Shown here: piece after piece, positions 20,382-25,640 of the stretch | Numbering within the stretch: the first letter of the stretch is position 1 | Layout of the letters: each line of letters begins with the position of its first letter | NCBI RefSeq assembly: GCF_016765695.1 | Contig: NZ_JAETGO010000089.1 | Coordinates: 124,001 to 188,000, forward strand | Direction of reading: 5' to 3' | Length of the DNA stretch: 64,000 bases | Source of the DNA: Sporosalibacterium faouarense | GTDB lineage: Bacteria; Bacillota; Clostridia; Tissierellales; VENL01 | Program-made: the position numbers and the translations under genes | The notes under the pieces: model-generated | The model's database searches: none | Seen by the model: the letters and a program-made list of their open reading frames with translations, nothing else | What the model was told of the DNA's origin: nothing

Positions 20382-21674
20382 ATGAATAAGGATACTATAA
20401 ATATATTATGTGAACTATATGGTGTTAATAGTAAAATAGTGGACTATGTCAATGATAAAGAGAAGCTAATAAAGGATAAATTCAATGCAATCAATGAAAT
20501 TAAAGAATACAATCAATATAAAGTTATTGCTGCTATGCAAAAGGCTAAATTAAATGCTACACACTTTGGTTGGACTACTGGATATGGCTATGATGATGTT
20601 GGTAGAGATAAAGTAGAGGAGATCTATTCATATATATTTAATACAGAAGACTCCCTAGTAAGACCAACCATTGTATCTGGGACCCACGCAATAACCTTGA
20701 CAATTTCGGCTATAGTAAGACCAGGAGAAGAACTATTATCAATAACAGGTAGCCCCTATGACACATTACAAAAAGTAATTGGTATTAAGGGAGATTCTAA
20801 GGGTAGTCTTAAAGATTATGGACTTGAATACAACGAAATACCTTTAGATAGTGACGGCAATATTGATATTAAGACGACACTAAGAAGTATAAATGAAAAG
20901 ACTAAGTTAATACTGATTCAAAGATCTACTGGATATAGTGATAGAAAAGCTATAACTTTAGATGAAATAAAGAGAGCGGTTGAATCTATTAAAGCTGAAC
21001 ATAAAGATATAGTTATTATGGTAGATAATTGCTATGGTGAATTTTTAGACAAAATTGAACCAACTGAGATTGGTGTTGATATTATAGCTGGTTCGCTAAT
21101 TAAGAATCCAGGTGGAGGACTAGCTTTAACTGGGGGCTATATAGCTGGTAAAAGAGATTTAATAGAGTTAGTTGCAAATAGAAGTACTGCTCCTGGAATA
21201 GGCAAGGAGTGTGGACTGACATTTGGTACAACAAGAACAACTCTTCAAGGATTATTCTTAGCTCCAAATGTCGTAGCAGAAGCTCGTAAGGGAGCATTGC
21301 TAACAGCTATAGCCTATAAGTCTCTGGGATTTAGAGTTATACCTGATTTAGATGATGAAAGAAGTGATATAATACAAGGAATAGAATTTAAGAATAAAGA
21401 TAGCGTTATTAAGTTCTGTCAGGGAATTCAAGCTGCATCTCCAGTTGATTCTTATGTGTTACCTCAACCTTGGGCAATGCCAGGTTACGAAGATGAGGTT
21501 ATAATGGCTGCTGGTGGATTTATACAAGGATCATCAATTGAATTAAGTGCAGATGCACCTATCAGAGAACCATACATTGCTTATTATCAAGGTGGATTAA
21601 CATATGAACATTGCAAACTTGGAGTTATTAAAAGCTTAGATAATTTAGTTACAAACAATCTAGTGAAATTATAG
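20382..21674 (+). CDS. ynbB: YnbB-type PLP enzyme (methionine gamma-lyase / aluminium resistance family)
   Basis: 430 residues of the family named for aluminium resistance, a cystathionine beta-lyase relative. Motifs are FGWTTGYGYDDVGRD, IVSGTHAITL, RSTGYSDRKA, VDNCYGEF, and the PLP lysine in AGSLIKNPGGG. AGAGGAG precedes the ATG. In B. subtilis ynbB also lies between the hfq/spoVK region and glnRA, so synteny supports the name. The physiological substrate is unknown. Confidence 0.93.
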   Translation: MNKDTINILCELYGVNSKIVDYVNDKEKLIKDKFNAINEIKEYNQYKVIAAMQKAKLNATHFGWTTGYGYDDVGRDKVEEIYSYIFNTEDSLVRPTIVSGTHAITLTISAIVRPGEELLSITGSPYDTLQKVIGIKGDSKGSLKDYGLEYNEIPLDSDGNIDIKTTLRSINEKTKLILIQRSTGYSDRKAITLDEIKRAVESIKAEHKDIVIMVDNCYGEFLDKIEPTEIGVDIIAGSLIKNPGGGLALTGGYIAGKRDLIELVANRSTAPGIGKECGLTFGTTRTTLQGLFLAPNVVAEARKGALLTAIAYKSLGFRVIPDLDDERSDIIQGIEFKNKDSVIKFCQGIQAASPVDSYVLPQPWAMPGYEDEVIMAAGGFIQGSSIELSADAPIREPYIAYYQGGLTYEHCKLGVIKSLDNLVTNNLVKL

Positions 21675-21743: not shown

Positions 21744-21780
21744 AAAAGAATGGTGAATACTTTAAATTCACCATTCTTTT
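21744..21780. terminator. Bidirectional terminator between ynbB and lexA
   Basis: AAAAGAATGGTGAAT ... ATTCACCATTCTTTT, a perfect 15-bp stem with A and T runs on both sides, serving both convergent genes. Confidence 0.92.
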
Positions 21781-22400
21781 TATTTTAAAGATCTAAATAC
21801 ACCAACAACTTTACCTAAAATCTTAACATCGGTTGATATAATAGGGTCCATAGATTGATTTTCTGGTTGCAATCTTATATAATTTTTCTCCTTATAGAAT
21901 CTTTTCACTGTAGCTTCATCTTCTAAAAGAGCAACTACTATATCTCCATTACTAGCAACATTTTGTTGTTTTACTAGTACATAGTCACCATCCAAGATAC
22001 CAGCTTCAATCATACTTTCACCTTCAACACTAAGCATAAAAGCAGAAGTGTTCTCAACAAAATTAACCGGAACAGGGAAAGTATCTTCAATATTTTCAAC
22101 TGCTAGAACAGGTTGACCTGCTGTAACCTTACCAACAATAGGTACATCAACTATTTCTTTTCTAGGAAGTATTCCTTCATTATCTTTATCTAATATCTCT
22201 ATAGCTCTAGGCTTAGTAGGATCTTTTCTTATGTATCCTTTATCTTCAAGTTTAGATAAGTGCCCATGAACTGTGGAAGTAGACCTAAGATTAACCGCCT
22301 TGCAGATTTCTCTAACTGCAGGGGGATATCCTTTGGTCTGAATCTCATTTTTTATAAAATTTAGAATTCTTATTTGCTTTTCAGATAAATCTTCATACAT
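21780..22400 (-). CDS. lexA: SOS repressor LexA
   Basis: 206 residues from the ATG at 22400 (GTGGGGTG site; the ORF can be opened five codons earlier without support). The N-terminal winged helix reads [13 protein letters not shown] ... [32 protein letters not shown]. The cleavage site is the Ala-Gly in [11 protein letters not shown], and the Ser/Lys dyad is in [16 protein letters not shown] and [11 protein letters not shown]. It represses SOS genes until RecA triggers self-cleavage. Its own SOS box is upstream, and it is divergent from yneA. Confidence 0.98.
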
Positions 22401-22456
22401 AGCAGCACCCCACATATTTATTTTACAAATATTATATCATATGTTCGGTATATAAT

Positions 22457-22528: not shown

Positions 22529-22557
22529 TTGACTTAGAACGTACGTTCTTTTATAAT
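22529..22557 (+). promoter_or_regulatory. yneA promoter with LexA operator in the spacer
   Basis: TTGACT (22529-22534) and TATAAT (22552-22557) are 17 bases apart. The perfect palindrome AGAACGTACGTTCT (22536-22549) fills the spacer, so LexA binding would directly block RNA polymerase. Confidence 0.92.
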
Positions 22558-22569
22558 ATAATTAAAGGT

Positions 22570-22583
22570 CGAACAAACGTTCT
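22570..22583 (+). promoter_or_regulatory. Second SOS box in the yneA leader
   Basis: CGAACAAACGTTCT lies downstream of the -10 and just before the GGAGGG ribosome site, giving yneA two LexA sites 34 bases apart. Confidence 0.88.
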
Positions 22584-22597
22584 TGGAGGGTGATTTT

Positions 22598-22906
22598 ATG
22601 AGTGAAAAAAATACTAAACTTGTCATCGTAAATAAAACTAGATTTATTATATTTGTTACTATTGTACTATTATTCTTAAGCATAATAATGGGAGGTATCT
22701 TCAAATTAGATAAAGCCTACAGTTCTACATATAAGACATGGAAAGAGATTACTATACAAAGTGGAGATACCCTTTGGCATATAGCCAGAAAAAATAATCC
22801 CCATAACCATGATACAAGAAAAGTGGTTTATGAGATAATGAAGTTCAATAGCATGGAGGATGCATCTATAAGAACAGGAGATGTAATTAAGATACCTACT
22901 AATTAA
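22598..22906 (+). CDS. yneA: YneA-like cell-division suppressor with LysM domain
   Basis: 102 residues from the ATG at 22598 behind GGAGGGTG. One N-terminal transmembrane helix (FIIFVTIVLLFLSIIMGG) is followed by an extracellular LysM domain (ITIQSGDTLWHIARKNN ... IRTGDVIKIP). YneA delays division during the SOS response in Firmicutes, and divergent pairing with lexA is the standard arrangement. Two SOS boxes control it. Compared with Bacillus YneA, the helix and LysM order agree. Confidence 0.92.
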   Translation: MSEKNTKLVIVNKTRFIIFVTIVLLFLSIIMGGIFKLDKAYSSTYKTWKEITIQSGDTLWHIARKNNPHNHDTRKVVYEIMKFNSMEDASIRTGDVIKIPTN

Positions 22907-22984: not shown

Positions 22985-23087
22985 TTTGTCGAAATAAAAT
23001 AGGAATCGCTGTAATTTCATGATGTCGAAAGTAATTGTCGATATTTTATGTCGGAATAATATGTCATAATCATGTGTTGATACCTGT
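22985..23087 (+). repeat. Array of 13-bp TGTCGA-type direct repeats
   Basis: Starting at 23023 five units follow one another without a gap: TGTCGAAAGTAAT, TGTCGATATTTTA, TGTCGGAATAATA, TGTCATAATCATG and TGTTGATACCTGT. A weaker sixth (TGTAATTTCATGA) precedes them at 23010, and an isolated perfect Spo0A box, TTTGTCGAAAT, is at 22985. Strict 13-base phasing suggests ordered protein binding. The core matches the Spo0A box TGTCGAA, but Spo0A need not be the binder. Confidence 0.7.
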
Positions 23088-23147
23088 AGAATAGCAATAA
23101 TACAATTTTTACTATATTATGATTATGCTAATCTTCTTATCGAACAT

Positions 23148-23159
23148 GAACATATGTTC
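23148..23159. promoter_or_regulatory. Additional SOS-like box before the DUF3795 gene
   Basis: GAACATATGTTC is a perfect palindrome matching GAAC-n4-GTTC. It is 81 bases upstream of the DUF3795 start, suggesting LexA control of that gene. Confidence 0.7.
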
Positions 23160-23228: not shown

Positions 23229-23459
23229 ATGACTGAAGTAACAGCATATTGTAGAATTAAATGTCATGAATGTCCAGTATACCAAGCTACTATTAACAAT
23301 AACATCGAAGAAAAAGCTAAGATTACAAAAGAAAAGTGTGGTTCTAAGCTAAATGTAAAAAACTGCAGCACTTGTATAGATTATCCTTGTGATAAACTTA
23401 ACAAAGTTTTCGACAAATCTCCTGAAGCTAAAACAACATTAGAAAACTTAAGGAGATAG
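23229..23459 (+). CDS. DUF3795-type Cys-rich protein, internally shortened
   Basis: 76 residues from the ATG at 23229 (GGGGG site at 23216). The start (TAYCRIKCHECPVYQAT) and end (CGSKLNVKNC, CIDYPCDKL, DKSPEAKTTLENLR) match DUF3795 proteins, which normally have about 110-115 residues. The central part with another CxxC pair is absent, while the frame stays open, so it looks like an in-frame internal deletion of about 35-40 codons. The conserved CGIKC is CRIKC here. It is probably damaged or a minimal variant. An SOS-like box and the 13-bp array lie upstream. Confidence 0.75.
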   Translation: MTEVTAYCRIKCHECPVYQATINNNIEEKAKITKEKCGSKLNVKNCSTCIDYPCDKLNKVFDKSPEAKTTLENLRR

Positions 23460-23627: not shown

Positions 23628-24593
23628 TTATTCATTGCTATCATTTTGACTGATAGAAGATAGTGGATTACTCTTAACTGCTTTCCTTAAACGCTCATCA
23701 TCAATATGAGTATAAATCTGAGTAGTAGAAACATTCTCATGACCTAATATCTGCTGAAGAGCTCTTATATCAACATTACCATGCTTGTACATAAGTGTAG
23801 CAGCTGTATGTCTAAGCTTATGAGGCGAGTATTTTTCTGAATCAAGACCAGCTAATTTCACATACTTTTTCACCATATACTGAACAGCTTTAGGACTAAG
23901 ACGATTTTTCTTTCTACTTATAAATAATGCTTTTTTATCTTTGCCATCACTAGGTCTAACCTTCAAATAATTATCTAAAGCATTGATGCATGCATCATTA
24001 AGATAAATAGTTCTTTCTTTATTACCTTTACCAATAACCGTGAGGGTATCTCCCTTAATCTTATCTATATCAATACTAACTAATTCAGAAAGTCTCATTC
24101 CACAGTTAAGAAATAGAGTTATAATCGCATAATCTCTTTCTTTAAACTGACCATCAATAGCTTCTAATAACTGTTTAGCTTCTTCTAAAGTTAAGTACAC
24201 AGGATGCCTGGAATCGGTCTTGGGTGATTCCAAATCCAGGGCAGGGTTCTCATCAATTAATCTCACCTTAGAATGTAGGTACTTAAAGAAAGAACGTAGA
24301 CTTGCTACTTTACGGGCCTTAGCATGATTATGATTATTTCTTTCCTTATCTACGTATGATATGAATGCATATAAGTCTTGGATATTAACTCTTTTTATAA
24401 TATTAATGTCAATATCACTAATATCAATCTCTTCAAAATCTGTACTTTTAGTAACTATTCGATATCTCACTTTTAAAAACTTAAAGAATGTTCTAAGATC
24501 ATAATGATATTCTCTTACAGTATTAGAAGATTTTCCTCTGATTGTCTCGATATAGTTGAGAAAGTCTTCAAGCAATATTGGTGTATCGTCCAT
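23628..24593 (-). CDS. XerC/XerD-type tyrosine recombinase linked to lexA
   Basis: 321 residues. The N-terminal SAM-like core-binding domain is LLEDFLNYIETIRGKSSNTVREYHYDLRTFF. Catalytic residues are the Arg in CGMRLSELV, the Lys in GKGNKERTIYL, HKLRHTAATLMY (H-x-x-R), LGHENVSTTQIYTH, and the Tyr in that last motif. GGAGG is 12 bases before the ATG. The dif-type Xer recombinases are similar. In many Clostridia such a gene lies beside lexA, so it is more likely a resident recombinase than a recent phage integrase. Its target site is unknown; TGTCGA-type motifs flank it on both sides. Confidence 0.92.
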   Translation of the reverse strand: MDDTPILLEDFLNYIETIRGKSSNTVREYHYDLRTFFKFLKVRYRIVTKSTDFEEIDISDIDINIIKRVNIQDLYAFISYVDKERNNHNHAKARKVASLRSFFKYLHSKVRLIDENPALDLESPKTDSRHPVYLTLEEAKQLLEAIDGQFKERDYAIITLFLNCGMRLSELVSIDIDKIKGDTLTVIGKGNKERTIYLNDACINALDNYLKVRPSDGKDKKALFISRKKNRLSPKAVQYMVKKYVKLAGLDSEKYSPHKLRHTAATLMYKHGNVDIRALQQILGHENVSTTQIYTHIDDERLRKAVKSNPLSSISQNDSNE

Positions 24594-25640
24594 TTTATCA
24601 AAACCTCCTAGATATTACCTAAATTTGTTACTTTTTTGCTCCAATGTCGCAAAATATACATTTTGTATAATAAAATATTCGATATTTATAAGGATTTTCC
24701 TTCTATTTTTCATTATTTTTTTAAGATTTTTAGTAATTTTATCTATTTCACCTTCAAATTAGTTCTTATTTTAATAATTTAAGTTTATTTATTCTTTATC
24801 CTATAATTTAATCGTTAATTTTCATCATTATTTGCATTCTTTATTATTAAATTAGTCCGATGAATATCTTAAATCGACATTTCGACCATTTTCACTTCAG
24901 TTAATATTCGACATTTTATTGATGCTTCCCTTTAATATCTACAATTTTACATATTATTACATTTTATTGCCTACTATCATATCTCATTATTAAATTCATT
25001 AAACACTTATACAATAATCAATTAATAATCACTTATATTATGCAAGTTTGTAATTATAAAACCAGTTTAGTATACATAATCATTTTATAGTCTACTTATT
25101 TCACGTATCTTAAGTTAGAATTTAAATCAATAGCATAATAATACAATTATTTACATTTTATTACACTTTCTAAAAATATCGACCCTTCATTTTCTCTTCT
25201 AAAGGGTTTTTAGCGCATTTATAATGCTATAGGTTGTCTAATTTAAATATTTTAGTTATAGTCTGTTTATGCTTGTCATTCTTGAATTTCCTTAATTTTC
25301 TTCAACTTTAATTGTTAATTTTATTAATAAATTTATTTATTAATACTACAAGATCTACTTCTAACAAAATTAGTATAAACAGCTGCCCAAATGTCGAATA
25401 ATATTTAGGATAGAAAACTACTAGTGTATTTTTTGATAAGAAAATTTCATTCATTAATTCAAATCATTTAACGACATTCTTTTTCACTTCATAATAAATA
25501 AAAAAATGCTCCATATTGTAATAACAATTTTATAATTCAAAACCTTTACTACAAAGAAGCATATTTTTTATTAATATCTTTAATTTATAAAATTTAAATT
25601 TGCAAATCAAATCTCTTTTTCTTTACATAATATATTTATG
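24594..25640. other. Gene-free AT-rich kilobase upstream of the recombinase
   Basis: No credible coding frame in 1,047 bases, in a genome whose gaps are usually under 200. It holds TGTCG or TCGAC motifs at 24645, 24874, 24882, 24908, 25179 and 25393, several of them Spo0A-box-like (two of these are 26 bases apart). A long-loop hairpin, AAAAAATGCT ... AGCATATTTTTT, lies at 25500-25567 and may terminate the GNAT transcript arriving from the right. Confidence 0.6.

Follow-up and report, generated by a model that had tools for sequence, protein, structure and literature searches.

A 13-bp-phased row of TGTC repeats lies at the replication terminus of Sporosalibacterium faouarense beside a Xer-type recombinase gene with a dif-like site

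At the replication terminus of Sporosalibacterium faouarense, a member of the Tissierellales, an array of direct repeats with a period of exactly 13 bp lies beside the gene of a Xer-type tyrosine recombinase, which is itself associated with a dif-like site and a sigma-H-type promoter. The array was found in a stretch of 64,000 nucleotides (contig NZ_JAETGO010000089.1 of assembly GCF_016765695.1, positions 124,001 to 188,000), hereafter called the window, and it is confirmed as a genuine feature. Our preferred explanation, which we hold tentatively and at a little less than even confidence, is that the array is a head-to-tail row of protein-binding sites at the terminus, next to a Xer/dif-like module wired to sporulation, and that its likeliest ligand is Spo0A~P.

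An earlier sequence-only reading had described 13-bp direct repeats beginning with TGTC or TGTT, and all five positions and the exact phase are read directly from the DNA: TGTC starts at 23023, 23036, 23049 and 23062, and TGTT at 23075. The units, all on the forward strand, are TGTCGAAAGTAAT (unit 1, 23023..23035), which has a perfect 0A-box core; TGTCGATATTTTA (unit 2, 23036..23048); TGTCGGAATAATA (unit 3, 23049..23061); TGTCATAATCATG (unit 4, 23062..23074), the fourth exact TGTC at this period; and TGTTGATACCTGT (unit 5, 23075..23087), which overlaps a weak sigma-A -35-like hexamer, TTGATA, at 23077. The weaker unit that had been placed at 23010 is also present and in phase (TGTAATTTCATGA, 23010..23022, forward strand); it begins with TGTA, only its TGT matches, and it is not kept in the relative described below. 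A perfect extra TGTCGAA does exist ahead of the array, although it occupies 22987..22993 (forward strand) instead of starting at 22985, and it is out of phase, 36 bp ahead of unit 1. The array had moreover been called gapless, which is correct for its 13-bp phase but not for its sequence. In fact, when the four TGTC units are compared in pairs, identity is 0.90 over bases 1-5 and 0.44 over bases 6-13, and since the chance identity for AT-rich linkers is 0.43, the latter value is at chance level; the repeating part of the units is their first five bases alone.

Tandem Repeats Finder, applied to the window, did not report the array, and Rfam gave only a sub-threshold microRNA match. In a Markov simulation, any 4-mer holding two or more G/C was accepted when it recurred four times in phase, with all periods of 8 to 40 allowed; this gave an expectation of 0.01 such cases per 64 kb, and the array is the sole case in the window that satisfies this definition. 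The pattern TGTC-N9-TGTC-N9-TGTC has no second match anywhere in the 4.12-Mb genome.

GC skew changes from +0.20 (18-22 kb of the window) to -0.32 (24-28 kb), with the switch at about 21.7-24.6 kb, and because of this flip the locus is identified as the replication terminus. The same sign pattern surrounds the recombinase gene in 36 of 38 loci compared, namely that of the window and 37 others, taken as stretches of 10.5-20 kb around this gene. The array is preceded by lexA (21780..22415, reverse strand) and by yneA (22583..22906, forward strand), which encodes a cell-division suppressor (LysM) and has two SOS boxes, at 22537 and 22571. The window contains three perfect GAAC-N4-GTTC SOS boxes, one of which (GAACATATGTTC, 23148..23159) is located between the array and a DUF3795 gene (23229..23459, forward strand) whose ATG is preceded by GGGGGAT; because of this perfect box upstream, the sequence suggests that the DUF3795 product is SOS-induced. 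The sequence-only reading had put the array at an SOS locus, between yneA and the recombinase gene. The place holds, and lexA and yneA do adjoin it, but the intervening DUF3795 gene with its own SOS box was missed, and both the replication terminus and the dif-like site were overlooked. A tie between the array and the DUF3795 gene was considered and rejected, since the relative that also carries the array lacks that gene at this place; by this comparison the DUF3795 gene is outside the conserved arrangement.

The recombinase gene (23628..24593, reverse strand) encodes 321 aa matching PF00589 (E = 1.9e-44), and inspection of the translation by eye shows that the catalytic R-K-HxxR-H-Y residues are all present; judged from these residues, the neighboring gene is that of an intact Xer-type recombinase. 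Its scores remain below the curated NCBIfam cut-offs for XerC (234.5 vs 335), XerD (214.8 vs 329.6) and XerS (161 vs 267), it barely reaches the XerA/integron-type model, and a separate XerD is encoded in the same genome (C68:91524, on the contig of the window). As classified by these models, the enzyme is neither XerC nor XerD. A strong ortholog is found in 58 of the 60 genomes searched, the source genome being counted.

Immediately upstream of the recombinase gene lies a palindrome, TGTCGCAAAAT-ATAC-ATTTTGTATAA (24645..24670), which is single in the source genome in a search allowing up to 3 mismatches. Of 57 genomes examined, 48 have an equivalent palindrome, likewise upstream of this gene. 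Across the 48 genomes the inner CAAAAT/ATTTTG is invariant, the outer arms vary and 18 different centers occur; the sites were chosen partly by their inner core, so that the invariance of the core is partly built in, while the free center is not. XerH reads the inner 5 bp of difH and, outside them, mostly the backbone (PMC5241119), and we label the site dif-like because its conserved inner arms and free center match this manner of reading. It is a single palindrome with conserved arms and a variable center, at the GC-skew switch, and in the family of the window its left arm begins with TGTCGC.

Other candidates at the terminus were also considered. A stretch at about 20388-20415 resembles the canonical Firmicutes dif (AGGATACTATAAATATATTATGTGAACT), and relatives have their equivalents of it between -3.4 and -4.4 kb; it consists of the first codons of a methionine gamma-lyase gene, which show the same resemblance in many relatives, and it was dismissed as a dif because coding conservation explains the matches. 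The likeness, located as it is at the terminus, is thus probably coding conservation. A candidate dif at 23107-23134 was rejected, as the scan gave no support for it. A second terminus palindrome, AGTTTACATAA-N5-TTATGTAAACT, is perfect or near perfect in about 20 genomes of the order, nearly always in one copy per genome (e.g. at L154, L156, L158) and mostly some 0.3-0.5 kb before the start of the recombinase gene; in the window itself there is no more than a weak form, near 25619. Each arm of this palindrome equals the XerD arm of B. subtilis dif, but its center has 5 bp.

A sigma-H-type promoter of the recombinase gene, AGGA-N17-GAAT, is predicted by motif match at 24677..24701 (reverse strand). 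The pattern searched upstream of the gene was AGGA, 16-18 nt and GAAT or GAAA, after the sigma-H consensus. Of 40 genomes with Spo0A, 24 have a promoter of this type upstream of the dif-like site, against 0 of the 17 that lack Spo0A. The spo0A promoter of the source genome has the same AGGA-N17-GAAT (G000:C68:81093-81117, forward strand), and a TGTCGAA overlaps its -10 (AGGAAATAAATAGCATTTGTCGAAT); the same overlap occurs at the xer promoters of four genomes (G028, G050, G056 and G008). The TGTCGAA adjoining the dif-like site in these four was therefore rejected as a separate box and removed from the contrast by Spo0A presence given below, because it is the -10 element of a sigma-H-type promoter. 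The combination of a Xer gene with a dif-like site and a sigma-H-type promoter is wider than the array and well supported; throughout Tissierellales, the resolution of dimers may be coupled to the onset of sporulation.

On the far side of the recombinase gene from the array there are a TGTCGA box at 24874..24879 (reverse strand) and perfect TGTCGAA boxes at 24907..24913 (reverse strand) and 25392..25398 (forward strand). From 24594 to 25640, upstream of the recombinase gene, 1 kb of DNA is noncoding and AT-rich; its GC skew is strongly negative (-0.34), and it contains several TGTCG boxes in both orientations. Over the 38 loci, noncoding DNA lying 3-10 kb from the dif-like site predicts 0.64 TGTCGAA for the noncoding sequence up to 1.7 kb from it, and 15 were observed (about 24-fold), the highest enrichment of 180 CG-containing permutations; 4 of the 15 are sigma-H -10 elements. 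Genome-wide box statistics were drawn from pattern searches and from 124 kb of contig C68, where five of the ten TGTCGAA fall within 2.55 kb at the terminus (p = 8.5e-7). Once the sigma-H overlaps are removed, 11 of the 40 genomes that have Spo0A carry noncoding TGTCGA[AT] boxes near the dif-like site, and the other 29 carry none there; among the 17 genomes that lack Spo0A the count is 0 (p = 0.024). The contrast takes no account of phylogeny and is weak, and the link of the boxes to Spo0A presence is only suggestive. As a KOPS/SRS-type motif TGTCGAA did not qualify, being rare and unoriented, with forward and reverse copies on both sides and no polarity.

The source organism encodes Spo0A (PF08769 at G000:C68:81675, E = 8e-47), a protein that contacts G2, C4 and G5 of TGTCGAA (PMC3485338). 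The full core is present in the 22987 box and in unit 1, as in the 0A boxes of Bacillus and Clostridioides, which have the same 7-bp TGTCGAA; G2, C4 and G5 are also kept in units 2 and 3, whereas in units 4 and 5 not all three are present, and these two are poor 0A boxes. The conserved positions of the units, TGTC(G), mostly match the contact bases. Those known 0A boxes differ from the array of the window, in which four to five units follow one another every 13 bp at the replication terminus, and from that of the relative, which lies away from any promoter-like match. The sequence-only reading had taken the TGTCGAA core for the Spo0A box of spore-formers, and this is strengthened by the contact bases and by boxes that track Spo0A, while the spacing may speak against it. 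Tandem Spo0A boxes, as at abrB, lie about 10 bp apart, against 13 bp here.

The 13-bp phase is conserved at the orthologous locus, yet it is rare. Across 249 genomes of the order, a stricter pattern for the array, TGTCG-N8-TGTCG-N8-TGTC, matched in two, the source genome and a genome of another genus of the same family (G001). In the latter the match is at C9:18771, again between yneA and the recombinase gene in the orthologous gap, and reads TGTCGAAATATTA TGTCGTAATTAAT TGTCTAAATATGA, aligning with units 1, 2 and 3 respectively; a single TGTCG stands 24 bp ahead of it. When at least three phased TGTC were accepted at any period from 8 to 40, again only the window and G001 qualified among the 38 recombinase loci, both with period 13. 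In G001 the array is flanked by a methyltransferase gene, whose stop codon precedes it, and by the convergent recombinase gene, whose 3' end follows it; no promoter-like match was found over the array. In both genomes the array lies beyond the 3' end of the recombinase gene, at about 0.2 kb in G001 and about 0.5 kb in the window. A third member of the family (G002) has no array beside its recombinase gene, with other sequence in place of the 3' flank. Since the pattern is restricted to the window genome and one genus of the same family, and G002 and all other genera lack it, the array is not an order-wide element. The conservation of the 13-base phase, which had been proposed as a check, thus holds at the same locus in G001 and fails in G002 and the other genera; loss of the spacing in relatives, which had been named as what would speak against the array, is not what we see, the spacing being kept in one relative only. 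In a class-wide sample of 391 genomes, further matches came only from G606 and, once, from G426, the latter in a stretch without a skew flip. The G606 case (L196, 1450-1600) is an intergenic 13-bp minisatellite of TTGTCGGTTTAGC between convergent genes, with no skew change, and it was rejected as a relative of the array because it is a true 13-bp minisatellite with no skew flip nearby.

That such a minisatellite, with no evidence of function, exists in a member of the class is the point in favor of regarding the array as a decayed 13-bp minisatellite or a product of chance. We consider this improbable, the least credible of the readings: a core conserved at 90% between linkers at chance identity is the opposite of a young duplication, the simulated expectation speaks against chance, and G001 keeps the phase at the orthologous place. 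In another reading the array is an ordinary operator, and an activator on it would switch on the DUF3795 gene at a TTGATA-18-TACAAT promoter (23077-23106). Unit 5 overlaps the -35-like hexamer, and the same DUF3795 leader contains an SOS box, which are the points for this operator; the weak sigma-A-like promoter after the array also counts against our preferred explanation. The operator is nevertheless unlikely, as the promoter scan performed no better than shuffles (27 vs 23.2) and the array of G001 has neither the DUF3795 gene nor a promoter-like match. Because that array is located between convergent genes without a promoter-like match, an ordinary operator is not required, and a role in structure or at the terminus fits better than a simple operator.

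Phasing of this kind had been attributed to either a cooperative binding site or a recombination accessory site, and of the two it is binding at multiple sites that is favored. Accessory (arm-type) sites of the Xer recombinase, serving synapsis or the choice of direction, would agree with the TGTCGC that starts the family's dif-like left arm, resembling the TGTCG of the units, and with the position of the array, which in the window and in G001 alike is 3' of the recombinase gene. What stays invariant in the dif-like arms of 48 genomes, however, is the inner CAAAAT, and XerH reads the inner 5 bp of its site (PMC5241119), whereas the units keep the outer TGTCG alone; a search for Xer arm half-sites found CAAAAT in none of them, which makes this role less likely. 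Orthologous recombinases occur in dozens of genomes without the array, and the accessory role seems to us quite unlikely. Xer enzymes, moreover, are not known to have an arm-binding domain. A different head-to-tail binder, either an OmpR/PhoB-type response regulator or a family-specific organizer of the terminus with a MatP- or ZapT-like role, deserves more weight and is possible, if doubtful: position 6 of the units is free and T3 invariant, unlike the strict TGNCGAA box, the period is 13 and not 10, and the array is restricted to one family. Direct repeats of TGTC characterize regulators of the PhoB/OmpR type, although the pitch of those repeats is 11 bp; a candidate protein was not identified, and the boxes near the dif-like site track Spo0A presence.

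Spo0A~P is, from motif and distribution, the likeliest ligand, and we infer this ligand and every functional step that follows. At sporulation entry, (i) sigma-H would raise the level of the recombinase; (ii) Spo0A~P would fill the boxes around the dif-like site; (iii) the filled array would control or structure the terminus, acting on local transcription, on terminus folding or on the alignment of sister termini for Xer. The arrangement represents a new variation on the Xer/dif modules already known, with the array confined to a narrow family. XerS/difSL and XerH/difH likewise place a recombinase gene beside a palindrome of about 26-28 bp at the GC-skew switch, and XerH/difH shares the invariant inner arm and variable center; the recombinase of the window differs in scoring below the XerC, XerD and XerS cut-offs, in coexisting with a XerD and in having a sigma-H-type promoter, its dif-like site being predicted from sequence. 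The matS/MatP and ZapT sites are likewise clusters of a short motif restricted to the terminus. Compared with them, the boxes described here are confined to about 2.5 kb and do not span a macrodomain, their sequence is unrelated and there is no candidate protein.

In early sporulation of B. subtilis the sister termini cohere, which is likewise a sporulation-linked event at the terminus; its cause is open and protein bridging is one model (PMC7515245). That work is microscopy in another organism, with no site or protein known, and a link to the array is speculation: that Spo0A~P on the array holds or aligns sister termini in early sporulation, and that this explains the cohesion in B. subtilis, is a long shot.

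In one short stretch of DNA at the terminus, the resolution of chromosome dimers would come together with a regulator of sporulation and an SOS cluster. If a protein binds the array, sister-terminus cohesion at the start of sporulation would gain a concrete site and a candidate. Found across the order, the Xer gene with its dif-like site and sigma-H-type promoter suggests that dimer resolution is raised at sporulation entry in Tissierellales.
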